From Fragilariopsis cylindrus CCMP1102 (taxonomy: Eukaryota > Bacillariophyta > Bacillariophyceae > Bacillariales > Bacillariaceae), in assembly GCA_900095095.1 (NCBI GenBank), contig FMBT01000308.1, positions 124,001 through 188,000 of the forward strand: 64,000 bases of DNA. The letters are read 5' to 3'. A program made the position numbers and the translations under genes. Shown piece by piece: positions 5,293 to 64,000 of the stretch (its first letter is position 1; every line of letters starts with the position of its first letter). The notes under the pieces are model-generated. The model did not search any database, had not been told where the DNA came from, and was given only the letters and a program-made list of their open reading frames with translations.

Positions 5293-6711
5293 ATGTTCGG
5301 AACAAACAACGACAGTAACGGCAGCAGTATCGACAATAATAACAGTAGTAAAGTTAGCAAGATTTATCCAGAGGCTCGATATTTTGTTTCGAAAGCACAA
5401 CATAATGTACGATACGATTTTTCTTCGAAAACTCAACCTGTCTTGAAAGTCGATCAAGATGATTTAGTTCATGTTGAAACGAACGACTGTTTTCATGGTA
5501 TGGTCCAACCGGATAGCTTGTTGTCTTGGGAAGAAAGAATGAAGAAGAACAGCATTAATAATGATGATTATGGTGGTGCTTCTAGTAATAGTAATGGTAG
5601 CAGCACAAGCACAGGCAGTTGTAGTATTCTCGATGAGATACCAAGATCAAAAAGAAATCCAGTAACTGGTCCAATTTACGTGAATGGTGCAAGACCCGGT
5701 GATATTCTAGCTGTCACTTTGTTAGATATTCGCCCAAAAGGAATTGGTGTATCTTGCTGCGGATCGCAATCCGGTCAGCTCTGTCACTTGATGAAGAAAG
5801 ATTCCATCTCTATTCGATTTTTCGATCTTAACCAATGTAGAACGATCGTAACAATGCGTGACGATGACGATGACGATCACAATAATGATAACAAAGAGAA
5901 AGAAGAAGAAGAGGCTATGACGAGTAATAGTAATGAATCTGTCGAAAATATTATTACTATTGATAATAATACCAATAGTCCTAATTTGCAACATCCACAA
6001 CAACCTCCAAAACGATGGCGTCAACGACGACTTGGTCCTATTTCCTTTCCAGCCTCGCCTATGCTTGGAGTGATTGGTGTCGCCCCTTCATCAGAGGATG
6101 AAGATCCTATCGGAACAATTCCTGCCGGAAAACATGGTGGGAATCTCGACAATAATTGCAACGGTATTGGATCCACTATATATCTACCCATCAATCATCC
6201 GGGAGCGTTGCTTTCAATTGGAGATATGCATGCATCACAAGGGGACGGGGAAATAGCAGGAACTGGTGTAGAAATTGGAGGCGATGTTCTACTGAAATGT
6301 CGGGTCATTAAGCAAGAGGATGTGTACGGTAAATTACTATTCGATGACGACGAAGAAGATGAGACAATTGAAACATCATCGTCATCTTGTAATAATTCAT
6401 CAAAATGGAAATTGGAATATCCCGTTACTGAAACTGCCACGCATTGGATTACACATGGTGTTGTTGAGGGGGATATTCCCAAAACGACATCGATTGCATG
6501 TACTGAAGCGGCTAAAATTCTTGTTACGCAATGGGGTTTTACCATCGAAGAAAGTTTTATATTTTTGAGTGTGAAAGGTGATCTTGGTTTGTGTCAGGCA
6601 TGTAATCCTGATGTTGGAACTCAAATTGCAAAAATGTCAGTACCTAAAATAGAAAATGTTTGTCCACGACCTTTTCGAGTTTTGATGCCACAACGATCTC
6701 CATCGTCGTAG
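5293..6711 (+). CDS. Formamidase/acetamidase family amidohydrolase
   Basis: This is a 472-residue intact ORF of the FmdA/AmdA family, whose members hydrolyse formamide or acetamide to ammonia and the acid. Family landmarks are HVETNDCFHG near residue 60, TGPIYVNGARPGDILAV near 125, the PISFPASPMLGVIGVAP block near 250, and the signature GDMHASQGDGEIAGTGVE near 315, followed by a C-terminal EESFIFLSVKGDLGLCQACNP block. An acidic Asp/Glu/Asn insert at about residues 190-230 and another near 350 make it longer than typical members of about 400 residues. I see no signal peptide, so it is probably cytosolic. A role in nitrogen scavenging from amides is inferred from the family. Substrate preference cannot be read from sequence. 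Confidence 0.9.
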   Translation: MFGTNNDSNGSSIDNNNSSKVSKIYPEARYFVSKAQHNVRYDFSSKTQPVLKVDQDDLVHVETNDCFHGMVQPDSLLSWEERMKKNSINNDDYGGASSNSNGSSTSTGSCSILDEIPRSKRNPVTGPIYVNGARPGDILAVTLLDIRPKGIGVSCCGSQSGQLCHLMKKDSISIRFFDLNQCRTIVTMRDDDDDDHNNDNKEKEEEEAMTSNSNESVENIITIDNNTNSPNLQHPQQPPKRWRQRRLGPISFPASPMLGVIGVAPSSEDEDPIGTIPAGKHGGNLDNNCNGIGSTIYLPINHPGALLSIGDMHASQGDGEIAGTGVEIGGDVLLKCRVIKQEDVYGKLLFDDDEEDETIETSSSSCNNSSKWKLEYPVTETATHWITHGVVEGDIPKTTSIACTEAAKILVTQWGFTIEESFIFLSVKGDLGLCQACNPDVGTQIAKMSVPKIENVCPRPFRVLMPQRSPSS

Positions 6712-7341
6712 TAGTAGGTAGTCCGTCGTCGTCTAAATGTAGTTATTGAATAGTAGTGTAAAATAATCGAAAACATTATACGCCAACTAAGATACGATAT
6801 TTTTCAAAGAAAGACTGACTCAGATAGTTCTTTAATGAGAGTGATAGAGAAGAAGGAACGATCGGTTGTGAACGAATCTCAAAAATTATTGCTCATGTCC
6901 ACAAGTGTTTATCACACCAAGTCTAGTAGGAAAAAAGCAAAAATAATTAAATTCGGCCTAAATCTTTGGATGGATTTCATCTTTTCGTAATGCAATATTA
7001 CTAATATTTTTCGAATAGATAGTTAGGCATATGTAGTTGGCAATTAGTTTTAAAGATTTGTTTAGTATACGAACCAACTGAACTCCAAACGCTCCGTCTT
7101 GATTCTCAGGAAAACCCAGGCAAACTTTGTTGTACACAAAGTATGAAGTACGTAGGAATCCGTCATTCATCCAAGACGAGTATGTATAGAGTAGTAGGTT
7201 TCGTAGTAATAATTAGTCAGTCTGAATTTTCTATGAAAACAAAATGGAATAATAATATTGTCGCTGAGTTTGCCGTGTAGATTTTTTCGGTGAAATTCGA
7301 GAACTATATATTCAATATGCTTAATAGGAAGTCATTCATGT
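6712..7341. other. Intergenic region, no gene seen
   Basis: This stretch lies between the convergent formamidase and selenoprotein genes and should hold both 3' ends. A 70-codon minus-strand ORF at 6958-7170 has no recognisable similarity and I do not call it. Confidence 0.5.
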
Positions 7342-7393
7342 TCAAATACTATCTGTAATTCAAAAAATGAATTATCCAGTTGAGTATCTTCAT
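7342..7393 (-). promoter_or_regulatory. Possible SECIS element of the SelM-like gene (weak)
   Basis: Read on the minus strand, ATGA at 7393-7390 and TGA at 7344-7342 bracket a hairpin. It has a six-base-pair lower stem (GATACU-type with AGTATT), a CAA internal loop, a CTG/CAG step and a six-base-pair upper stem (TAATTC/GAATTA). It lies about 440 bases past the stop codon in the expected 3' UTR. The unpaired AA comes only eight bases after ATGA, closer than the usual 11-13, and the lower stem is short. It is the best candidate I found by eye and could be wrong. Confidence 0.3.
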
Positions 7394-7836
7394 TCTGAAA
7401 GACTAAACTATTTGATATCGATCCGTTCCGTTCTAATTCAGTTCAGTTCATTCCGTCTTGGCTTAGCTACTAGGTTACATATTACTTTTTAAAAGTGATG
7501 CTCCCAACAAATACAGATACAGATAATGATAATACTGCATACAAACTAGATTCGATTCATGATGCTACACCCTACTGATACTGAGTGTCCCTGTTCCTGT
7601 TCTTATCTTTTTCTTTCCACGTAGAACAAATGCAACCCCTTAAACAAAATCAATGCAAAATCATATAGTTTTTCTTTTGTTAGATTCACAATGGATTGAT
7701 TTATTGAATACATATAAATTATTCAGGTTCAACAAATAATGCTTTCCATGAGAAATCAAAACAAACAAATCATAGGATGCATGATTCAATTAAATAATGA
7801 TTGTGCAGATTAATAATAACGTCGTCATCGTGACAT
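7394..7836. other. Probable 3' UTR of the SelM-like selenoprotein gene
   Basis: AT-rich non-coding sequence directly after the TAG stop on the minus strand. No better SECIS-like hairpin was found here by eye. Confidence 0.4.
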
Positions 7837-8589
7837 CTATTCAGCATACATTGTTTTCTTTAAGATAAAAAATTGTCTCAACTTACCAGCAAGAACTACA
7901 AACACCATAACGTATAGACCTGTTATCGTATTATAAAATGATGATGGACCACCATCTGATATTTGTTCTAATTGTTTTTCTCTTCTCTCTACTTGTATTT
8001 CTTCTACCTTTTCTTGTTGTGTTTTTTTATGAAATCCTTCATCTATCATAAATTGATGCATATCCTTTCTTGTTTTTAATTCAAATAATGGTACGTCCTT
8101 AATTTGTTTTCCATCTTCATCGTATATTGTTAATATTGCTTTCTTCCCTCTAACCCAATCAATAGTAATACCATCATATTCCATGATCTCACCAACTGGT
8201 TTCGCTCTACCAGCAGAAGATGAAGAGGAAGATGGAGACTCGCCCTTAAGGAATATACGTAATTCCTTGTGTTTATTTAAGGTTCAGGCTGCGTTTATCA
8301 AAGAAGAAGAAATTAAAAAGTGGAATGATGTCAAAAAAATGAGAAGCAGCAGTATCATTAGATGCAGGACCTTTTAAAATCCAATGATACAAGTGTACAT
8401 TGTATGTAATCACAAAGAGAAGAGAAGAAGGAAAAAAAAAGAAGAAACCAACTCACCAGGACAAGATACAACTTTCCCCGTAATTGTTCCACCAGCGACG
8501 AATGTACTTATTGACGCGAGTACAAGTGTCAGAGTGAAGCTGATTGACAGCAACATAATAAAAGAAGAAGTACTCTTTTGCAGCATCAT
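7837..8589 (-). CDS. Selenoprotein M/Sep15-like membrane selenoprotein
   Basis: There are two exons: 8589-8457 and 8288-7837. The intron (8456-8289) starts GTGAGT and ends GCAG. Exon 1 encodes a hydrophobic signal peptide and ends VVSCP. Splicing gives C-P-A followed by TGA (8286-8284), then TLNKHKELRIFLKG. That mirrors the CGGU-QLNRLKEVKAF block of selenoprotein M, so the TGA is read as selenocysteine in a CxxU redox motif. Next come a Ser-rich insert, the conserved strand and helix WVRGKKAILTIYDEDGKQIK / MHQFMIDEGFHKK of the Sep15/SelM thioredoxin-like domain, a charged linker, and a C-terminal membrane helix near YNTITGLYVMVFVVLAG. The product is about 194 residues. Animal SelM and Sep15 are soluble ER thiol oxidoreductases, so the membrane anchor is unusual. 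The start is the first of two adjacent ATGs. Read conventionally, only the 115-residue C-terminal part would be called. Confidence 0.83.
8284..8286 (-). other. In-frame TGA read as selenocysteine (C-P-A-U motif)
   Basis: The TGA occupies bases 3-5 of exon 2 and forms the fourth position of a CxxU motif whose cysteine is at the end of exon 1. The other acceptor sites I tried nearby do not remove it while keeping the downstream frame. The flanking protein is conserved on both sides. Confidence 0.8.
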
Positions 8590-9001
8590 GGTCGGAATTT
8601 TATCGTACGGTTTACTTCTATAATATTCGCTTTGTGCTTTGCTTATTTGCTTTTACTGTTGCTTTGTTTTTGTTTCTCAACAACTTTTGCTACTGTATTT
8701 GGATTTTGTGAAGTTTAAGAAAGTTGATTTGTCGAAATGCATGAGAAGAGGAGTGTGTAAAAAGTGAAGAAAGTCATCGCTTCTCTGTTCACTGTTTTGT
8801 AAAAGGGGGAAGGGGGAAATCATTAGAATTTTGTCTACTGTAATTGAAAATTCAAAATTGAGTTCAATCTTAATTCTCAATTCGGGGGAGCGAGGAATGT
8901 CAAATGGAAATCGAAAAGAATTACACACAAGTGAACGTCGGCAGCATATGAAAAATGTACTTAGTACAACAATAACAAGACATTCAGCATAGTAATGGAC
9001 G
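8590..9001. other. Divergent promoter region between the selenoprotein and oxygenase genes
   Basis: About 410 bases between two divergent starts. The 111-codon minus-strand ORF crossing it lacks recognisable similarity and overlaps the start of the oxygenase, so I treat it as chance. Confidence 0.5.
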
Positions 9002-9865
9002 ATGACGATCAATGATGATGAGGTGGAGAAAATACCCGTTATTTCCGACGATATTGAATTATTGAAACGTGGGATATGTTGTGTTAAAATACCAGAACAA
9101 ATAGATATCGATTTTTGGGCTAAAGAACTTTCACAGTTAACACCAATGATTTTAGGTTTTGAGGGTGATGGAGAATATTCATTTTATCGCAACATTATGG
9201 ATGAACCAGATTTTCCATTTGATATGCTTTTGTTCGAAGAAGTAAAGCAAAAACAACAACTACGACAACAAGAAGAATCTCCCTCATCGTCGTCGAAAGT
9301 GTTGCAGGAGTTGTCGGATATCGGAAAAGCTATGATAAGATACTTTCCCATCATTACTCAACGGCAACAGGAACACAAGGATCAGCAAAATCTAGTAAAG
9401 TATTTATCAGAAGAACTACAATTGGATGATGCATTTTGTGTGCATTACAATATGGACCAAGAAGATACAACTGGTAAAAAACATATAGATCCAAGTGATA
9501 TTACCATTAATATGTGTCTACAAAAATCAGATGAAACGGAAGGAAGTTATGTATTGTTTTATGGAATGAAAAAATTACTGAATGTAGTAGACGACGTAGA
9601 CAATGATAAAGAAAAAGAAGACGAAGAAGAATTGCAAAACAACATTGATGATGATGCTGTCAACGAGAACGATAGTGACAAACAAAACAGAATACACGAG
9701 AATCGATTTTATGTTTCTCAAAAACCTGGTTATGCGACAATTCATTTTGGGGATCATACACATGAAACAACAGCTTTACATCACGGTAGTCGAACGAATA
9801 TTATACTAACGTATGTATATACAGATCCAAAACGAAGTGATGTAGCAACGAGGACGTGTTACTGA
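9002..9865 (+). CDS. 2-oxoglutarate/Fe(II)-dependent oxygenase, prolyl-4-hydroxylase-like
   Basis: This intact 287-residue ORF has a double-stranded beta-helix pattern. The iron ligands read as H-x-D in KKHIDPSDITINMCL (about residue 160) and a distal His in TTALHHGSRTNIIL (about residue 258), with the Arg that binds 2-oxoglutarate eight to ten positions away. The intervening YVSQKPGYATIHFGDHTHET segment fits the PKHD-type family, as does a Gly-x-Tyr-x-x-Phe step where relatives have a GG-x-L-x-F step. An acidic Asp/Glu/Asn loop of about 35 residues lies between the two halves. No signal peptide is visible, so it is cytosolic or nuclear. The substrate (protein prolyl/lysyl or other) is unknown. 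The ATG overlaps a shorter out-of-frame ATG at 8997. Confidence 0.82.
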   Translation: MTINDDEVEKIPVISDDIELLKRGICCVKIPEQIDIDFWAKELSQLTPMILGFEGDGEYSFYRNIMDEPDFPFDMLLFEEVKQKQQLRQQEESPSSSSKVLQELSDIGKAMIRYFPIITQRQQEHKDQQNLVKYLSEELQLDDAFCVHYNMDQEDTTGKKHIDPSDITINMCLQKSDETEGSYVLFYGMKKLLNVVDDVDNDKEKEDEEELQNNIDDDAVNENDSDKQNRIHENRFYVSQKPGYATIHFGDHTHETTALHHGSRTNIILTYVYTDPKRSDVATRTCY

Positions 9866-10980
9866 ACTAAAAATGAAATGAAAAAAATCTATGAATAATA
9901 GTTGTTACCATTCTTTGTAAACACTGTTTTAAGATTGCAGTGTTTTTTCTCAATCGACGGATAAGGGTGTGGCAATACCTTAATACAAGATGAAAGAGAG
10001 GTCTCGAATACTACTCCTACAAACAGAGTCGTGCCGAGTCCTATCAAAAATAACTCGAATCGAATCGTCCCAACTTATTGAGGGGCCATTTTGTCACTCA
10101 ACAACACGTATGCTCTCTCTCTCTGAATGCTTATCCCCCCCCCCCCCCCAAGGAAATGGGCCGTTTCACGCATCCTCAATCCTCAAACAATATATAATAT
10201 AATATAATATGAGTCCAATCGGTGACTCATAAATCTTCGATGCATAAACACATATTGTTTTTTACCACAAATCAATAAGATATGAAAATTATATTCACAA
10301 CTGATCACCTACCTCCACTCCATAAATTTGGCTGTAATGATTTCCTAATCAGAATTGTTTCTTACTACTATATGACTATGTATTAATGTCCATTTCCACC
10401 AGATAAGTATAACATCTTTGTAGTTAGCAATTATGAGATTTATTCTAATTAATGAAGAAATCTAGTCCAGTCAAGTTCTTGGTGCAGTATACTTATGAAA
10501 GTTACTGTACTGCTACTTGTGTTCTATCAAATTGCTAGGAGCATAGAGACAAACCAATGCAACATGCAGGCATACATGTCTTTGAGATTAATGATCTCAC
10601 GTTATTTGTGTTACAAAAGATCTCTTTTCACTGTTTCTGACGATCGTCGTCCATCGTCAACTAAAGTAGAGCATCATGATTTGGGGGAGGTGATTTTCTC
10701 GATTTTCTTCGATCAATTTGTTTTTCGTCCCACGTCCATACGCGCGCGCCTATCACACACGTGCTACTTTAACTTGAAATTTAAAATTCCGAATCTTATC
10801 CATTTTAAAAAATAGATTTCTAAATTACAGCAGTATGATTGTTTCTGTACTTCTGAAGTACAGTCAATAGGCAATACTAGTACTAGTACGATGACATTGA
10901 CATAAAAGGGCATCATCAACCTTCATATAAGAGACAAATTTATAGATAAGTAGTAACAGTGCGTGTAACGAATACGAAAG
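9866..10980. other. Intergenic region, no gene seen
   Basis: AT-rich sequence with a 15-base C run and a short ATATA tract near 10190-10210. The 106-codon ORF at 10495-10815 is not convincing: it has mixed composition, no family similarity and no good flanks. Confidence 0.5.
10135..10149 (+). repeat. Poly-C homopolymer, 15 bases
   Basis: An uninterrupted C run, conspicuous in an AT-rich region. It could form a G-quadruplex or i-motif-like structure, and its length is likely to be unreliable in the assembly. Confidence 0.9.
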
Positions 10981-39825: not shown

Positions 39826-42800
39826 TCAATCAATACCCTTGTATGGAGCAAACCATCTTGTTGACTGGGTATCTGTTACGGTTGGTGTTCGTTGTATCGT
39901 TATGGTTCCATTGGTATGAGTTGCTACAATTCGGAATGGTCCTGAAGATCTCTCTGACAGCTTTGACTTATTCCACACAATTTGCATCACTCTATCTCCC
40001 ACTCTAAAGTGGTGTTCAATTCTTCTTTTGTTTTGTTTGATCAAATTCTCATCAATCATTTGTTGACGTCCTGCTCGAATTGCTTCTAGGTTAGCTATCA
40101 AGGGTACATCCATAATCATATCCCGACCATACACCATTGCACCTGGTGTTGTCCCAATCGGTGCACTGACTGAACATCTCATTGCATGCATACATGTTGC
40201 TAATGCATTGTCCATCACTTGGTTGGCATCATTTTCATTCTGTGGAGGATTCGTATGTAATATTACTCGTAATATATCACCAATTGTATGATGCATTCTT
40301 TCGCAAATTGCATTCGATTGCGGGTTTCGAACTGCAGTACACACATCTGTGATTCCATACCTTGCGAGTACATCTACAAATTCCCATCCGACAAACTCTG
40401 TTCCATTATCATGAACACATCTGTTTGGTCGTGGGTATCGTGAAAGCCATGAGTTCTTGAACTGTTCTGCTACATGACCCATAGTTTTGTTTTGTATTCT
40501 GATTATTCGACGAGATTTGTTACAGGGTCAATACATGTTAATGCTTTGAATACACATATGTTTCCATTGACCACTATCTCCCACGGACCGATCAAGTCTA
40601 TACATACTTCATTCCATGGAGCTATGTTCGCATGTCGTGGAGGTAGTTTTCCATAACCTCGACCTTGCTGTTTATACATGTGGCAATTTTCTGGACATAC
40701 ATAATCTCTGCACAGTACAGATAATCTTTCTGCATGGAATCTTGCTTTGATAGTATTGTACACTTTTGTAAATCCACAATGTCCTAATATCATATGATAC
40801 CATCTTATCACATTTTGTATCAATGATTGTGGTATATATATTTTCCATTCATTTTGTAACACCATAGGATCAGCTCGATAGCATATCAATGGACGCCATT
40901 GATTATCTTAATTGGGTAATATGAGGTTGAGCTAATGATATTTGAACCACGCTGCATCTGCAGCTTGATGTTGTTGTATATTGTTTACAGTTGTTGGACA
41001 ATTCATTTCCTGTAAGGTAGGTAGATTCATGAATAGTTCTATCATTTCAATGTCTTCATTACGACATATGTTGGTAGTATTTGAGGATCTTTATCCTGTT
41101 CATCGTATGAAAAGAATACATCTTGTTCATCGTTGGTACTATTATCTTATTCCAATCAATAAGTTTTCCTTTTAACTCATTCTTCCCCGGCGAGGGTGCA
41201 TCCATTCGAGGCAGCCTTGAAAAAGCATCTGCAAGAACATTAACTTTCCTGGACATACTGTAAGTTAATGTCATATCTTCCAAAATAACTTCCATCTCAT
41301 TACACGGGTGGTGATAATGTGTGAAAGGTTAGATTTTTATGGTCTGTGAATACATTAAACGACCTCCATAAAATATCATGATATCCTTTACACACATTAC
41401 AATTGCAAGAAGTTCCTTCTCTGTTGTATTATAATTCTTCTGTGATTCAGTTATTTCTTACCCATATGCAATTGGTTTACCATTTTGTATAATTGCAGCT
41501 CCAAGTTGATAGTCACTTGCATCTGTATAATATCAAACGGCAGATTAGATCGGGTAAGTTGTCATGGCATCTGCAGCAATCATTGCTTTCATCGTATCGA
41601 ATGCTTTGATTGTCGTGGACCCCATACGAAGGGTACATCACCAGTTAGTTCATGTAAGGGTGCTAGTATATGTGACCGTCGTGGCCACATACTCTTGTAG
41701 AAAGTACTGCACCAATAACGATCTAACTTGTGTTTATCTGTTGGTTTACCCAATTTCAGAACTGCGTCTATTTTGTTTCGCATAGGAGTGATCCATCCGG
41801 AGTCATATAATGTCCTAGGAAGTGAGCTTCCTTCACTCCCCATTTACATTTTAACGGATTACATTTCATACCATTTGCCACTAGTCTTTCTAGACTGTAT
41901 CTACAATACTGAAGTGGTCGTCAAACGTTCCTTGGTCCATATACCAAGATCATCCATATATGCGTCTATATCTAGACCATGTAGGATTTTCTTTATCATA
42001 GATTGTGCAAAGTCCGGAGACACTTTGATCCCATTGGTACACGATTGTATTGATATTTACCAAATGGTGTGGTAATAGTACAGAGCTCCTTGCTCTCTTC
42101 ATCCATTTCAAAACAGTAGAACATCATAGAGAGATCAATCTTTGTAAATGACTGTAACCTCTTTGTTTTAACATGATGTCTTGTATCTTTGGTACCGGGT
42201 ACTGTGGACGTTCTAAGTGTTTATTCAATTCACGAAAATCACTCACCCATCTAACTGTATTGTTACTCTTTGGTATAATGAACGTTGGTGAAGCCCAGTT
42301 AGTCATACCACAGCGTCGTAGTACGCCGTCCTTTTGTAGATTCTCCAATTCGCGTTTGAAGACCTCCTGCCTTGTGTACGGTACAGGATATGGCTTTTTG
42401 TGAACTGGCTTTGTTCCTTGTTTAATTTGAAGATGAAGCTTCTCATGAGGGTAATAACCCAATTTTCCATCAAACAACTGTTTGTGCTTTTCTAACATTG
42501 CTTCAAATTTGATTCTTTCTTCACATGACATGTGATGTTGTTCGTCGGTACACTCTTTTGGAGTTACCTTCTTATACTTTCTTTCTAATATTGTTTTGCT
42601 TTCATAGAGTTCATCATCTTGATCATACTCTAAATTACGATACATCCTATTATCATAGTGATGTGGAGTTTTCATCGGTACCGTCCGATCAATCCATGTG
42701 ATTGTATTTGTTTGCCATGACATAGAAATGCCTGCTAATCTAAGGAAATCTCTTCCTAAGATGATGTCGTATTGACATGTTGGTGAATCAAATATTCTAC

Positions 42801-43344
42801 TTGATATATGATCTAACCTTCTTCCATTGCTAAATTCTGACAGTTTGACATTCTTCAAAGTGACTGATAATGACGTATCAAAAGAACCTGATGCTGTTGT
42901 CGTTATCTGTTTTCTTTCAGATCTACTCGGACAGGCTCCTGCCGGTAGTACTCTTCTATTCAATAGAGTTCCGCTGCTTCCACCATCCATTAGGACGACG
43001 AGCGGTCGATCACAATACTGTCCTTGTATTGTTTGACACGATAGCAATGTTATTGGTGCTAAATCTTTTTCATTATTCAAACCAGCTTCTACTGCTGCGT
43101 ATACTTCATTGTGGTTCATCCACTCATCTATACATAGTAGATTAGATTCGGTTTGATTCGTATTCAACGGATCGACTCTCGTCTCAAACAATGAGGAGCC
43201 TGTACGTACTGTACTTGTCGTATTGGACGACAGTAAATTCATTACTGTGCCTGCCTTCACATCAACATTATGCACTCCTTGTGCCTGCGTTCTGCAGCTG
43301 CTGTTTACATCACTTGATGCTGTGGGCGCTGCTGTAGCCTTATC
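39826..43344 (-). pseudogene. Retrotransposon pol: protease, RT, RNase H, integrase (frame broken)
   Basis: The frame continues directly from gag after one TGA. Protease: the active site reads LMDGGSSGTLLN near 42980. RT begins at KPYPVPYTRQEVFKRELENL; the palm motif YMDD lies near 41955. RNase H/connection remnants include SRKVNVLADAFSRLP near 41240. The integrase zinc region (HMILGHCGF...CPENC) is at 40700-40800 and its catalytic core has CIDLIGPW, then VHDNGTEFVG and NPQSNAICERMHHTIG (the D,D-35-E pattern). It ends at 39826 with APYKGID. Frame changes lie near 42140, 42030, 41910 and 41560-41000, and between the integrase pieces near 40500. It would need repair or corrected base calls to be functional. 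Confidence 0.88.
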
Positions 43345-44553
43345 TCAGCGTCTAGGATAATAGTGTCCATCGGAACACATATAGAATTCGGGCGCTGGTG
43401 CAATTGATGGTGGTTGACTTCCACCATGTTGTGCGTAGTAATGTGATTCAGATGGGCCAACTGATACATGCGACACTGGTGCTGGTGGTAAACTCGCACT
43501 CACTGGACTTCCATAGTATGGAGGTGGTGGTGCAGGATAGCCATTCGTATGATACGATTCATATCCTCCGCGTCCGCGGCCACGACCACCATCTCGTCCA
43601 CCACCTCTGCCTCTTCCGGCTCCTGCAGCTTTTCCAGCTGGGCTGTTGAAATTGGCTGGACATAATTTCCACAAGTGTTCTCCATCATGCTGTCGGCATC
43701 TTTCGTTGTCTCCACGACCTTGTCCGCGGCCTCGACCACGTCCACGACCACCTCTTCCTTGGTAGCCGCGTCCACGACCACCACCACTACCACGTCCTTG
43801 GTAGCCGGTCTTATCTTTGTTTTCTTTCTTCTTATGATTTTTCTTCCATTCTTTATCTGCATATTCTTTTTCCGAACTCATGTACTGCATCAACTTTTCT
43901 ACTGTAGCTTCTTGTGCTGTCACTTGAGTTCTATTCCAATTGATTTGCCATGCTTCTGGAAAGGACCTGAACAAAATCAACTTCTGTTCATCTTCTGTAA
44001 GATTATATCTGGATCCTTGTAACATAGTAGAAAACCTCATCAATTCTTCCATCCTGTCTTGATGTTCTGATACGGATGCCTTCATAGGCTTTCTGCATTC
44101 CTCCGACTTGAGGTATTCGATTAGATCTCCTTTCGAATCGGTACTGGTACAGTACAGTTTGATGAAATCATGTATTAGTGCTTGGAATCCCGACGCTTCA
44201 TTCACCACTTCCACTAATGCTCCTTGATCATTTTCTTGTTGCATCATGAGATCTACATATTTCTCGGGGCCTTTTGCTCTTAATCTCTTGAACTTTTCCG
44301 ATGGACCATGTCCTAAGATCTTCTTGAAGAATTCAATGTGTTGAGCTGTTGTAATAAGATTCAAAGAACTAACTGCCATTGCAAAGTCTTCAATCACATA
44401 CAATAACACTTCAATGCCTCCTTTATCAAAGGATGCACACTTTTCAAATCCATCGCTTCTTCCTTGAGGATTTACAGCCTTAAGCTTGTAGCGAATCAAG
44501 TCTTCCTTCTTGAAGCCTTCCGCATATTTGATTACTGATTGATTAGCGCTCAT
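43345..44553 (-). CDS. Retrotransposon Gag-like protein
   Basis: An intact 402-residue ORF starting 47 bases inside the 5' LTR boundary. Residues 1-240 are a helical capsid-like region (HIEFFKKILGHGPSEKFKRL, LTEDEQKLILFRSFPEAW). The C-terminal part is an Arg/Gly-rich nucleic-acid-binding region with many RGRG units around one short C-x-x-H...C segment (CRQHDGEHLWKLC) that resembles a degenerate zinc knuckle. It ends at a single TGA (43347-43345), after which pol continues in the same frame. This suggests Gag-Pol by stop-codon readthrough, or a point mutation in a former fused ORF. Confidence 0.88.
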   Translation of the reverse strand: MSANQSVIKYAEGFKKEDLIRYKLKAVNPQGRSDGFEKCASFDKGGIEVLLYVIEDFAMAVSSLNLITTAQHIEFFKKILGHGPSEKFKRLRAKGPEKYVDLMMQQENDQGALVEVVNEASGFQALIHDFIKLYCTSTDSKGDLIEYLKSEECRKPMKASVSEHQDRMEELMRFSTMLQGSRYNLTEDEQKLILFRSFPEAWQINWNRTQVTAQEATVEKLMQYMSSEKEYADKEWKKNHKKKENKDKTGYQGRGSGGGRGRGYQGRGGRGRGRGRGQGRGDNERCRQHDGEHLWKLCPANFNSPAGKAAGAGRGRGGGRDGGRGRGRGGYESYHTNGYPAPPPPYYGSPVSASLPPAPVSHVSVGPSESHYYAQHGGSQPPSIAPAPEFYMCSDGHYYPRR

Positions 44554-56097: not shown

Positions 56098-56980
56098 TTA
56101 AAGTTCGTCGCTTCCTGCAGATTTAGCAGCATGAGCCTTGCATGCCTTCATTAATCCAAGTCCAGCGTTTTTGATGTCTTCTTGGGTTTTTTCCTTTTCT
56201 TCCATCATCTTCTGGTAGTTTGCTTGAAGTTCCTCAACACCCGTCTTGAAGGCGGATTCTGCCTCTTCAATCTTCTTATCGCTATCAGCGATTAACTTAT
56301 CAAGATCGTCTCCAGCCATTGCAAGGAACTTTTCAATTGTGGCCTTCTTTTCATCGTCACAGATATCAATGTTTGCTGGTGAACAAACAGGTTTTAAATT
56401 TTCTGTGGCAAACTTTTCAAGAGAATCATAGTCACGAGCACCCTTGTAATCTTCAAGGGCGGATGGATCTCCCCATTTAATGGAAGGATATCCCTTAACA
56501 CCATTAGCGTCACAAAGTGGTTTGCCCTCGGCAGTGCAATCCACATCTCCGACGAGAGCGGTTTCGGAATCAGCGAATGCGTCCATTAGCTTTTCCCAAT
56601 CAGGCTTCATTTTCTGTTAAATATTATTATTAGAAAAATTAATTACATCAATAAATAGATAGGTAGATAAATACAAAGTTAATTAATTAGTTAGTTGGAG
56701 AAGGTAAATACGATTACGGTATATTATGTTATATCATGATGTAATTACGGACGATAGATAACAGAATATTTTTTTAAAAATAAAAGCGAAAACGACGCCT
56801 GAAATGACCCGCGTTTTTTTCACTTTGAAAATAAACTTACCTTACAGTGCCCTCACCAAGGCGCCTGGAACTTGATGAAGACAGTCTTTCCAGCGACAGC
56901 ATCATCAAAGTTGTCAGGTGTAAGTTCAATAGCATTAGCTACAGCCAAAAGGCTTAAAGGATAGCAACAACAGAATTCAT
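56098..56980 (-). CDS. PDI-like ER selenoprotein with UGHC active site
   Basis: Exons 56980-56841 and 56613-56098, with a 227-base intron (GTAAGT...ACAG). After a signal peptide and TPDNFDDAVAGKTVFIKF the sequence is QAPW-TGA-GHCK. The TGA (56855-56853) stands where thioredoxin-fold isomerases have the first active-site cysteine, so it is read as selenocysteine (UGHC). Exon 2 continues KMKPDWEKLMDAF, VDCTAEGKPLCDANGVKGYP (cis-Pro region) and EDYKGARDYDSLEKF. A helical tail like the ERp38/D-domain ends in SDEL, an ER-retention signal. The product is about 218 residues with a single thioredoxin domain. One base is missing in a T run near 56949 in the signal peptide (CTTT for CTTTT); the hydrophobic core is otherwise intact. 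The neighbouring paralogue has Cys at the same place. An intron donor overlapping the TGA (GTGAGG) was tested and would remove the motif. Confidence 0.9.
56853..56855 (-). other. In-frame TGA read as selenocysteine (UGHC active site)
   Basis: Flanked by APW and GHCK; the divergent paralogue has TGC here (58405-58407). Downstream coding is conserved for 172 codons and a SECIS lies in the 3' UTR. Confidence 0.9.
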
Positions 56981-58020
56981 TTTCAAAAGATAATATTATA
57001 TTTTATGAGAGAAAAGGAAGGATGACTTGAAAACTCCTGCTCGTAAATTCCGGCACGTAGATTCGAGCCACAACGCGCGGTAAACAGCGTAATTTTTTTC
57101 TTCAATTCTTGTCATTCTTGTCTTGGGGCTGATGAAATTTCAAACCGAATGCATGATTTTATGTACTACTGGCTAGATTTGGAGATACAGTACAATGCGA
57201 ACGCTAACGCGACACGATCTAGCTTATTTAAAGAGAATGTACGGTAGGCAACGCTCGTGTGGAAGATCGGTTGGCAGGGAGGCGCAATGTGAGAAGAGCG
57301 AAGAAAAATAGTAGCCGCGCGCCAACTCTTTTTTGGAGGATGCAAGTGCTAAAAAACACCTCTGACACATTCAACATTCTCGGATTAAATTCTTTTTTCT
57401 TCTCATCAATACTATCTTCTGTACCTCTACTTGCTGAAATATATCAGAGTGTACCAGAATGATTACAAGCCAAGGTGGTTTGGCAATTACAGATAAATCT
57501 ATAGGTACACTGAGAGAAGAACTGTATAGATATACCACCAACAATACTAAGAAAAAAGGAAGAAAGCACAATGAATTTGTGTCACTACCAGCAATTGAAA
57601 AAGAAGAAAAAGTACAAAAGATTTGCTCCACATGGTTCACCAAGTAATTGAAGATGAGTGCTAAGAACTTTTAAATATTATAATGATTTTTGGCACCCTT
57701 AGATTGTTTCTAACATATGTAGATATTTTTATGAAGATCAGGGACTGGAAACTGATGCTACACCATCAAAATGAAAATTGTAGTATTATTATTATAACAT
57801 TTTAACTTACAGCTTTCAAATGAATATAATGTGAGTGAAAAATGAAAAATAGCAACTAAAACAAGTCGTCGAACTTTTTTTTATCAGCACGATAAGTGTT
57901 TATTTTTATTTATTTAGGTGTAATTTTTTTATTTAGGGGCTAGTTAGTGTTGATTTCATTTCAAATTGTTGCAGCAAGGAAGTTATTATTTTTGATCAAT
58001 TTAATGAATCGCCAATCATC
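56981..58020. other. Shared 5' region of the divergent PDI pair
   Basis: About 1 kb. Two short overlapping ORFs (57259-57462, 57459-57647) have no similarity. Probably contains both promoters. Confidence 0.5.
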
Positions 58021-59022
58021 ATGACATTGATATTAAAAAATCACAACAACTTCGTACAACCATTTCTGTTGCTGTTGTGTTTTTCTGCTACATTGTATAA
58101 TGTATCGGCGGCGACGGCGGCGGAGGAGCAGTTTGAAGTTGATCGGTTAAATTATGATAATTATGACGAGTTGACAGAATCCAAAACAGTGTTTCTGAAA
58201 TTCTTTGCTCCATGGTATGTTATATAAAGATACTACGGCCTTTAGGTTACGACGATGGCAAAAAACGAATGAACGGATGACCGGGCGGATGGTCAAGAGA
58301 AATCATCCATTCGTATTATTTTAGGTAACGCCGACAAAACTCAACATCGTGAAAATAATCGCCTCTTTCTTCTTTGGTTTGGTTTGATTTGTATATACTG
58401 CAGGTGCGGACACTGTAAAAGAATGGCTAAAGACTGGGAACGATTAGCAGGACAATGGGAAGATAGTAAAATCGGACTTGTAGCAGAAGTTGACTGTACT
58501 GATAAGGGTGATGGCGATGATGATGAAAAAGGCGGTGGTGGTGGTGGTGGGAAAAGGTTATGTGATTATTTTGGTATTGAATCATTTCCGACAATGAAAT
58601 ATGGTGACCCAAATGATTTACAGGATTATAATGGTAAAAGATCATTACAGGAAATGTCAGAATTTGCAGAAGAACATTTAGTTCCAATTTGTTCGCCAAC
58701 TAATTTAAAACTATGTGACGATGAAGCATTAGCTAAAATGAAACAATATCTTGATTTGTCTATAAATGAATTACATCAATTTAAAGCATTGGAGGAAGAA
58801 AAATTAAAAAAAGCAGAAGTCGATTTTGAAACCACGGTAGATCGATTAACGAAGGAATACGAAGTTGCAGAAAAGGTAAAACGATTAATGATCGAAGAAA
58901 TTTCTAATGGAGATTTGAACCTAATGAATCAAATCCTTTTAAAAAAAGAGGGGTTTACCGATAATCGTCGATGGGAAAGTAACGACGACGAAGATGATGA
59001 AAGAAGTAATGATGAACTGTAG
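58021..59022 (+). CDS. PDI-like ER protein with CGHC active site (Cys paralogue)
   Basis: Exons 58021-58214 and 58404-59022, intron of 189 bases (GTATGT...GCAG) splitting the Trp codon just before the active site. The product is 270 residues: signal peptide (FLLLLCFSATLYNVSA), [32 protein letters not shown] with a Gly-rich insert, RLCDYFGIESFPTMKYGDP (cis-Pro), DYNGKRSLQEMSEFAEEHL. A long helical tail ends in NDEL, an ER-retention signal. It aligns over its whole length with the Sec gene at 56.1-57.0 kb, so the two are divergent paralogues. CGHC is the classic dithiol of protein disulfide isomerases. The intron sits a few codons from its counterpart in the Sec gene, so the splice positions differ although the proteins align. 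Confidence 0.92.
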
Positions 59023-61517: not shown

Positions 61518-64000
61518 ATGGCTGTAGTTTTACCTTTTTCACATCTTGGATTCTCCACTCCTGCAGACTATGACTGTCAAAATAATGAGGAAAGGGAGGA
61601 TGAGGATGATGATGATGACGTGGAAAAGATGATAATAAGCAAGGAGATTCCCAGTTTTTCAGTTTACGATGATGACGACAACAACAACATAATAGTAACA
61701 AAAATACAACAGTGGCAAAAATGACTGTCTTCCAAATTTCTCGAGAACATCACGTTTCCGAAGATGATCAATTATTAGAAGTGGACGGAAATGATGTATA
61801 CGAAAAGTCAATCGATAGTGTTGACGACAACGCAGTGGTTGACCACCAGGACGATGATGATGATGATAATAATAATAATAATAATGAAAGAGAAGCATAT
61901 AACGACGAAGTCATCATCAACGAAGACTATGATAATACAATGATCGAGAATAATAGCATCAAAATAAGGAACGGTGTCGTATGTAAAATCCACAATAACG
62001 ATGATGATGATAAAATAATAAGAATAACTCTGCTGCGTTGTCAGAAGAGTGTCAGACACAGATACCTGCAAATGAGGATACCAATAACAACAATGAAAGT
62101 AATTATTTTACCAGTATTAGTACCTGTAATTATAACAACAATGACGGCGAAGAATGTGAAGATGATTCAACATCATTCGTCACCTCATCACTGATGGCTG
62201 TGGATCTAGTTAAAAGTAATAACAAAAACAATAACAACAATAATGATCATGATAATGATGATGATGAAGTTATCGACAACAGCGACGAAAAATAGAATTA
62301 TCAATCCAAACAGAAAGCAGCACGGCATTATCCACTGCTGCTGCTGCTGTTGTTATTGTTGCTAATACCATCGTGGAAGAAGAACAAGGGAACATCGACA
62401 TTGTTAACACAGAAACCAATCAAAAAGAAACAGATGATGATGATGACTTTAGATTATCAACATCATTGTTATTATTATCATCGCCAACATCATCCTCGTC
62501 GGGAATTATTGTAGAGGACAAGCCTGATGAAGTTATTGAGGATGATTCTTCCTTTTCATATGGAGGATTGGTCAACCTCGGTAATACGTGTTACATGGCA
62601 AGTGCAATACAATTATTGGCAGGATTAGATAGTTTTAGAGATGAATTGAAGACGATGATTCCTCCTCCACCACCGCCAGCAACCGTCGTGGATGATAACG
62701 ATGACGACAATAATGAACAGTCATCGTCGTTGGAACCTTCAACGGAGGAGACAACGTCAAATAATAATAGTAATAATAATAGTAATAGTAATAATAATAG
62801 TCAGCAACAGCAGCAGCAGCGCAGCAGCTTCCTTGTCTCAAACACCGGTACGAGATGCATTAATTGATGTCTTTGATCGACTTGAGAAGGGAGAAACAGT
62901 CCGACCAGATGATCTGAAACGTCAAATTGATTCTAAAACGAGTCTCTTTCTTGGATATTATCAACAAGATTCTCATGAATTTGTAACGACCTTATTAGAT
63001 TTAATCGATGAGGAATACAAAGTAAAACCACCACCACCACCACCACCACCAGAAGTACTACAAACGAAGACGACAACGACAACGACAGCAAAACGTCAGA
63101 AGAAGAAGAAGAGAATCTTTCACAACAAAAGGACGACAGAAACGAATCTAACAACGACGATGAACCAAATAATATTAACAACAGCAACGAGTTGGAATCG
63201 AAAGATGAAAAGACTGCAACCTCCAAAGGAGGATGATGCTAATAGATGAGTACCGACAATAACGATAATAACAACAAACACCAACGAAGACGATCGTGAC
63301 GAAGACATGAATGATAACATTGATGAGAAAAAGAATCAATCATTGAGTAGTATCAATTGGAAGTAGATGAGAACAAGAATAGTAACGATAGTGATCAGCA
63401 GCTAGAATCTGCTCTAAAGAAACAAAAGCTGTTAGATGATGACACAATGGATATCGAAGTTGAAGAAGAAGAAGAAGAAATATCTACGAAAGAATGTGAC
63501 GATAGCACTCCTGATGTCAACGACGACAACAACATGAACAAAAGCCACTGCAACGCGAAGATGGTAAAGTCGAAATCATTCAGCGAATTTATGTTTTCGG
63601 ATATCGAAAATCTGCTCTACGAAGACAGCAATAAAAGTTCTAGAAGATTATCAGCAACAGCACTTACTTCATTCGATCGAGGAGGAGGGGAAGAAGATGA
63701 ATCGCCGAAAAAATACAAGCTCGTAGGAGGACGAATGAGTACAATTGGTATAGAATTAACCCCCTACATCGACGAAGAAGACAAGACGACGATGAGAATT
63801 TCAATGTAACAGACACGACTAATCTTGATAACAAAAACAACCTATACCAAATCAGGAGTCGATGATACCGACATTGAAATGCAACTGATGAAAGATAAGC
63901 AGGAAGAGGAGAAGAGGAGGATGATAATGATGATTCTCGGTCTCCTATTTCGTCTTTACCACGGAAGTTCGGGTATGTCTCACATGCGAATCATGTAAAT
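61518..64000 (+). CDS. Ubiquitin-specific protease, partial at right edge (frame broken)
   Basis: The N-terminal 280 codons are acidic, with Asp/Asn runs, and change frame near 61720, 62035 and 62300. The USP core begins SFSYGGLVNLGNTCYMASAI, with the catalytic Cys codon at 62588-62590. A poly-Asn/Gln insert shifts frame near 62790, and then TPVRDALIDVFDRLEKGETV and YYQQDSHEFVTTLLDLIDEE follow, the second USP signature. A Pro/Thr/Lys insert with more frame breaks runs to 63800. The last bases (63975-63996) read VCLTCESCK in one frame, the start of the zinc-ribbon C-x-x-C seen in USPs. The His box would lie beyond the edge. It would remove ubiquitin from proteins. Very repeat-rich inserts for this family. 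Confidence 0.83.

Follow-up and report, generated by a model that had tools for sequence, protein, structure and literature searches.

A probable selenocysteine-containing protein disulfide isomerase of the EhSEP2 type in the diatom Fragilariopsis cylindrus

The window, that is, the whole stretch of DNA analysed, comprises 64,000 nucleotides of contig FMBT01000308.1 of Fragilariopsis cylindrus CCMP1102. Its minus strand carries a two-exon gene for a protein related to protein disulfide isomerase (PDI), in which a TGA codon occupies the place of the first active-site cysteine. A Cys-form PDI-like gene is arranged head to head with this gene, some 1.04 kb away from the ATG at 56980. The features of the locus are as follows.

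56841..56980, minus strand: exon 1 with the leader and the active site; its ATG at 56980 opens a different frame from that of the TGA
56855-56853, minus strand: active-site TGA codon within APW-TGA-GHCK, putatively read as selenocysteine (Sec)
56614..56840, minus strand: GT-AG intron of 227 bases, directly 3' of the active-site Lys codon
56098..56613, minus strand: exon 2 with the rest of the thioredoxin domain, the helical C-terminal part, SDEL and the stop codon TAA
55816..55864, minus strand: candidate SECIS-like hairpin (ATGAC ... AAA ... TGAA) in the 3' region, from pattern-and-fold scripts
58021..59022, plus strand: Cys-form PDI-like gene (APW-CGHC, SNDEL) with exons 58021-58214 and 58404-59022

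The original prediction, made from the letters of the DNA, had placed an in-frame TGA in an APW-TGA-GHCK motif, and the codon is indeed present there. On the minus strand, the intron opens with the donor GTAAGT at 56840 and closes with the acceptor AG at 56615-56614; the junction GHCKKMKPDW formed across 56840/56614 matches that of the relatives. Exon 2 is open for 171 codons followed by TAA, and its C-terminal end reads GSDEL, so that the SDEL signal claimed earlier was recovered. Pfam was run on the spliced read-through protein with Cys typed in place of the TGA. Thioredoxin (PF00085) matched residues 2-101 with an E-value of 1.5e-20 as the only Thioredoxin region of the protein, which bears out the claimed continuation of the thioredoxin fold past the active site. 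Thioredoxin_2 also matched, below its cut-off; PF08806 was absent from the spliced protein at E <= 0.001, and exon 2 alone gave no Pfam match at that threshold. The mechanical list of open reading frames gives a frame of 170 aa at 56098-56610 with the active site left out, exactly the loss that had been foreseen for an automated caller beginning at 56610. A homologue search in 5.8 billion proteins returned 2843 matches, and the best 120 of these were used for the comparisons below.

The signal peptide, claimed in the same prediction, does not stand as an uninterrupted reading. The ATG at 56980 opens eight codons on the minus strand (MNSVVAIL), which run into a TAA at 56956-56954, and the TGA-bearing frame contains no ATG from the upstream TAA (57005) to the TGA. 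As assembled, the locus thus has no open frame from a start codon to the TGA, and a leader becomes visible only across the frame break. In two relatives, P0001 and P0002, the leader is colinear and 17 residues long, and the residues flanking the break are similar to it; by this resemblance the leader would be characteristic of the family and interrupted in the present assembly. The break itself presumably reflects a fault of assembly or a minor allele. As an explanation of the offset, an intron within the leader is disfavoured, because in the relatives the leader is colinear and as long as expected. The defect bears on the intactness of this copy and not on its family descent; the gene is for this reason classed here by kinship, with the defect stated.

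If the break were real in the strain, this would be a decaying copy, and the allele would yield no Sec PDI even though the family is one of selenoproteins. Both the early end of the ATG frame and the lack of an ATG in the TGA frame would fit decay, and no second full-length match is present in the assembly for comparison with the locus. When the allelic stretch on contig C28 was set against positions 6665-10790 of the window, 11 indels were found, all within 6791-7039 (in one of two aligned pieces, the other having 2 gaps); this confinement speaks against errors everywhere. However, exon 2 is open over its whole length and matches P0003, a protein cluster of 30 members, at 99% identity across 84% of the query, and the splice sites are undamaged. 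A gene for a UCH-type protease (ubiquitin C-terminal hydrolase) at 62373-63246 of the plus strand also shifts frame inside its domain, with UCH matching at 2-31 and then at 46-140; the shift could be an intron, an indel error or damage, and may point to indel errors. In a 2020 survey of algal selenoproteomes, genes with frame-changing indels and without EST support were counted as pseudogenes (PMC7539508), and under that rule, as worded in the survey, the present gene would be a pseudogene. Decay in the strain is nevertheless considered unlikely, and a Sec PDI gene with a leader interrupted in the assembly or in a minor allele is the preferred reading.

The position of the TGA can be followed through the relatives. 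Among the best 120 of the 2843, Cys homologues align at this position, CGHC being present in 65, while 13 have Trp there; 41 start at a Met just past the site (40 of them as MKPDW), and one, the gene model labelled Psemu1, jumps over it. In an alignment of 42 chosen full-length relatives, 12 with Trp and 30 with Cys, the residues K37, A40-P41-W42 and G44-H45-C46-K47 are invariant and position 43 varies. Because the A-P-W and G-H-C-K flanks are invariant, Trp at position 43 is best read as a TGA translated under another code. This equation of W with TGA is drawn solely from the protein sequences of the relatives; scans of viral contigs and genome contigs found no DNA of theirs. Part of the 41 post-site starts could be exon-2 reading frames taken from unspliced DNA, since in the present gene the intron adjoins the site.

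A tree of 122 rows was built by a quick method with the site masked, from the same 120 relatives (best of 2843), the window protein and one Cys paralogue of its own. The window protein falls into a set of 49 rows with an SH-aLRT of 100, in which 47 rows have the UGA-like signature, one is unknown (the site-skipping model) and one, P0008, has Cys. Of the 13 Trp rows, eight are placed elsewhere, amid Cys rows. Six changes between the Sec and Cys states are needed on the tree, and the starred branches alone force three of them under a Cys label or four under a UGA label. The number of switches is loose, because the method was quick and 54 of the 116 inner branches are open.

These comparisons also bear on two readings without Sec. 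If the UGA were a true stop, the functional product would have 170 residues, start at the ATG at 56610 and be devoid of the redox site, in agreement with the mechanical reading frame and with the 41 of the best 120 relatives that are predicted likewise; yet the segment upstream of the active site is conserved among the full-length relatives, and a product of this kind would begin inside the thioredoxin fold, leaderless, and still keep an ER retrieval signal, which makes the reading very improbable. Least probable is a base error or variant of TGC/TGT in an ordinary CGHC enzyme, for although TGA is one base away from either Cys codon and CGHC occurs in 65 of these 120 relatives, the rows nearest the window protein bear the UGA-like signature instead of Cys, and the same UGHC is found in a second gene on contig C306. 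Decoding of the UGA as Sec is thus the reading followed below.

The means for such decoding were sought in the genome assembly of 67.9 Mb and 818 contigs, some of which may be alleles. The tRNA-Sec search gave 13 matches over the cut-off, mostly in groups of three, when 53 of 3172 candidates were scored. They lie on contigs C69, C547, C138, C56 and C678; nine of the 13 belong to three loci, and ARAGORN assigned the anticodon TCA to eight of these nine. In the control genomes, tRNA-Sec was matched in 14 of 14 and over the cut-off in five of 14. Thirteen is an unusual number of matches, and an unusual number, eleven tRNA-Sec predictions, has likewise been published for Fragilariopsis cylindrus (PMC5330540). 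The genome also contains a SepSecS gene and a SelT-like gene with CVS-TGA-G, and five of its nine GPx matches carry one TGA each, two of the five forming a near-identical pair. Across the components covered, namely tRNA-Sec, SepSecS and further genes that carry TGA at a Sec site, the machinery for Sec decoding was found.

UGHCK written with TGA occurs in two places of the 67.9-Mb genome, both of them PDI genes. A control with the reversed pattern gave five matches, so the 15-base pattern is in itself no rarity, and what counts as evidence is the conserved protein context. The second UGHC PDI gene is situated on C306, within 222000-228000, with its TGA at 2391-2393 of that stretch. By our own reading, its APW is placed on a micro-exon of 11 bases, with an intron inside the Trp codon.

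In the 3' region of the window gene, the SECIS-like hairpin begins 234 bases past the stop codon. When the 897-base UTR was dinucleotide-shuffled, two of 1000 shuffles reached the constrained energy of the hairpin with the same pattern, the observed value serving as the threshold, and none of 1000 did so with the ATGA quartet. Six of 200 shuffles of the hairpin stretch itself folded equally well. Elsewhere in the window, three of 79 other 1.6-kb pieces outscored the candidate, and under relaxed rules 19 of 127 other 1-kb pieces scored at least as high. Helix I is not evident in it. The Rfam SECIS models gave no match in the window, near the gene at a low threshold or on the candidate alone, and none genome-wide at E <= 10 (133 of 1400 candidates scored), the other Sec genes being missed too. 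At five control Sec genes, the pattern-and-fold finder returned no convincing element: one GPx locus gave -8.2, which was not kept in the paralogue, one gene gave -3.2 and three gave none. As the detector failed on the control genes, the hairpin at 55864-55816 is regarded as a SECIS candidate only.

The fold was considered on the predicted structure of the relative P0002 (mean pLDDT 86.9, pTM 0.69), which consists of a thioredoxin domain followed by long helices, the first 15 residues being of low confidence. Its best matches among solved structures are the Trx domains of ERp46, and most structural matches span about 100-120 of the 218 residues. P0002 scored 85 bits against TIGR01126 (pdi_dom), under the cut-off of 107, and 95 bits against TIGR01130, for which the cut-off is 344. 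The model is that of a PDI a-type fold. In its catalytic domain, the present protein resembles the Trx domains of ERp46/TXNDC5 and the a domains of PDI in both fold and sequence. ERp46/TXNDC5 and PDI have Cys instead of Sec and several catalytic domains per whole protein. Unlike a classical PDI of a-b-b'-a' arrangement, with two Trx domains that are catalytic and two that are not, the present protein has one Thioredoxin region. SELENOF and SELENOM (Sep15/SelM) are likewise ER selenoproteins of thioredoxin-like fold, with a motif other than UGHC; they differ in their PF08806 domain, which the present protein lacks.

The product would be a small thiol/selenol-disulfide oxidoreductase of the secretory pathway, of the EhSEP2 type, in which a leader peptide precedes a single thioredoxin domain of the PDI a type, followed by an extended helical C-terminal part and then the SDEL retrieval signal. 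Leader, SDEL and PDI a-domain together point to the ER lumen, where the protein would presumably reside. The UGA at 56855-56853 would be decoded by tRNA-Sec with the help of a SECIS in the 3' UTR, which would give the redox centre Sec-Gly-His-Cys. The selenol would then attack substrate disulfides or donate to them, and resolution of the mixed selenosulfide would fall to the Cys of the motif. This is a likely chemistry by analogy, the scheme being drawn from general knowledge of PDI and selenoenzymes.

Selenoprotein PDIs have been described in several algae, as the original prediction noted. 75Se labelling led to EhSEP2 of the haptophyte Emiliania huxleyi (BAD98262.1), a PDI with UGHC and one thioredoxin domain (PMC6254913). 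The present gene is like it in the single thioredoxin domain, in UGHC at the PDI active site and in algal origin; EhSEP2 differs in coming from a haptophyte and in being a 75Se-labelled protein, and the likeness is one of description and not of alignment (PMC6254913). For the diatom Thalassiosira pseudonana, two Sec PDI genes were reported in 2007 (PMC2375036); these are likewise Sec-containing PDI-like proteins of a diatom, two genes there and two UGHC genes here. The 2020 survey distinguishes Sec PDI sub-families PDI_a to PDI_e and has F. cylindrus among its species (PMC7539508). The present gene would likewise be a PDI-like one with Sec in a diatom, compared with these sub-families by description. 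In the passages of the literature on algal selenoproteins that the analysis covered, the gene is not named.

The proposed decoding of UGA as Sec in a U-x-x-C centre is supported by the state of this position in the relatives, by the decoding genes, by the other genes with TGA at Sec sites, by the fold of P0002 and by the precedent of EhSEP2. Among the marks of the EhSEP2 type, a single PDI-type thioredoxin domain and an in-frame TGA at the first active-site Cys are present. With a probability of roughly 0.85, the UGA is decoded as Sec in a UxxC PDI active site and the gene encodes an EhSEP2-type oxidoreductase of the secretory pathway. It very probably belongs to the selenoprotein PDIs of this type, a family already known from algae, as a new or perhaps already catalogued member.

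The Cys-form neighbour shares 40% identity with the Sec protein in an alignment of 197 residues, and for paralogues on C282 and C150 the identity is 62%. A recent inverted duplication as the origin of the head-to-head pair is disfavoured because of this difference in identity. Between the two divergent genes, the stretches 57276-57657 and 57764-58002 of the window recur in the genome at about 70-96% identity. It is conceivable, at somewhat less than even odds, that several switches between Sec and Cys have occurred at the leading active-site position of the ER PDIs of diatoms, and that the genome maintains the two chemistries in parallel. Were it so, with Sec UGHC and Cys CGHC genes head to head some 1 kb apart and, at other loci, Cys paralogues and another Sec PDI, nature would have set up in this family an experiment on the contribution of selenium to the oxidative folding of proteins in the ER. 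With Sec and Cys forms built on a common conserved scaffold, one could directly test what selenium is worth to an oxidoreductase of the ER. Gene callers tend to drop the catalytic residue, as 41 of the best 120 of 2843 relatives start past the site, some of them perhaps as exon-2 reading frames, and one splices around it; the use of selenium in diatom secretion is therefore probably under-annotated.

Two further observations were made in the window. A probable SelM-like selenoprotein gene lies at 7837-8589 of the minus strand, with a leader followed by CPA-TGA-TLNKHKEL; its TGA is at 8286-8284, and its intron has the donor at 8456 and an acceptor ending at 8289. With Cys typed at the TGA, PF08806 was matched with 30.4 bits (cut-off 26) over residues 79-129, the CPAU site being outside the match. 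The SECIS finder gave nothing canonical at this gene, the best score being -10.0 with a 32-base loop. A near-identical copy of the gene is present on C28. At 39826-44553 of the minus strand, open reading frames resemble by eye integrase, reverse transcriptase and gag pieces of an LTR retroelement.
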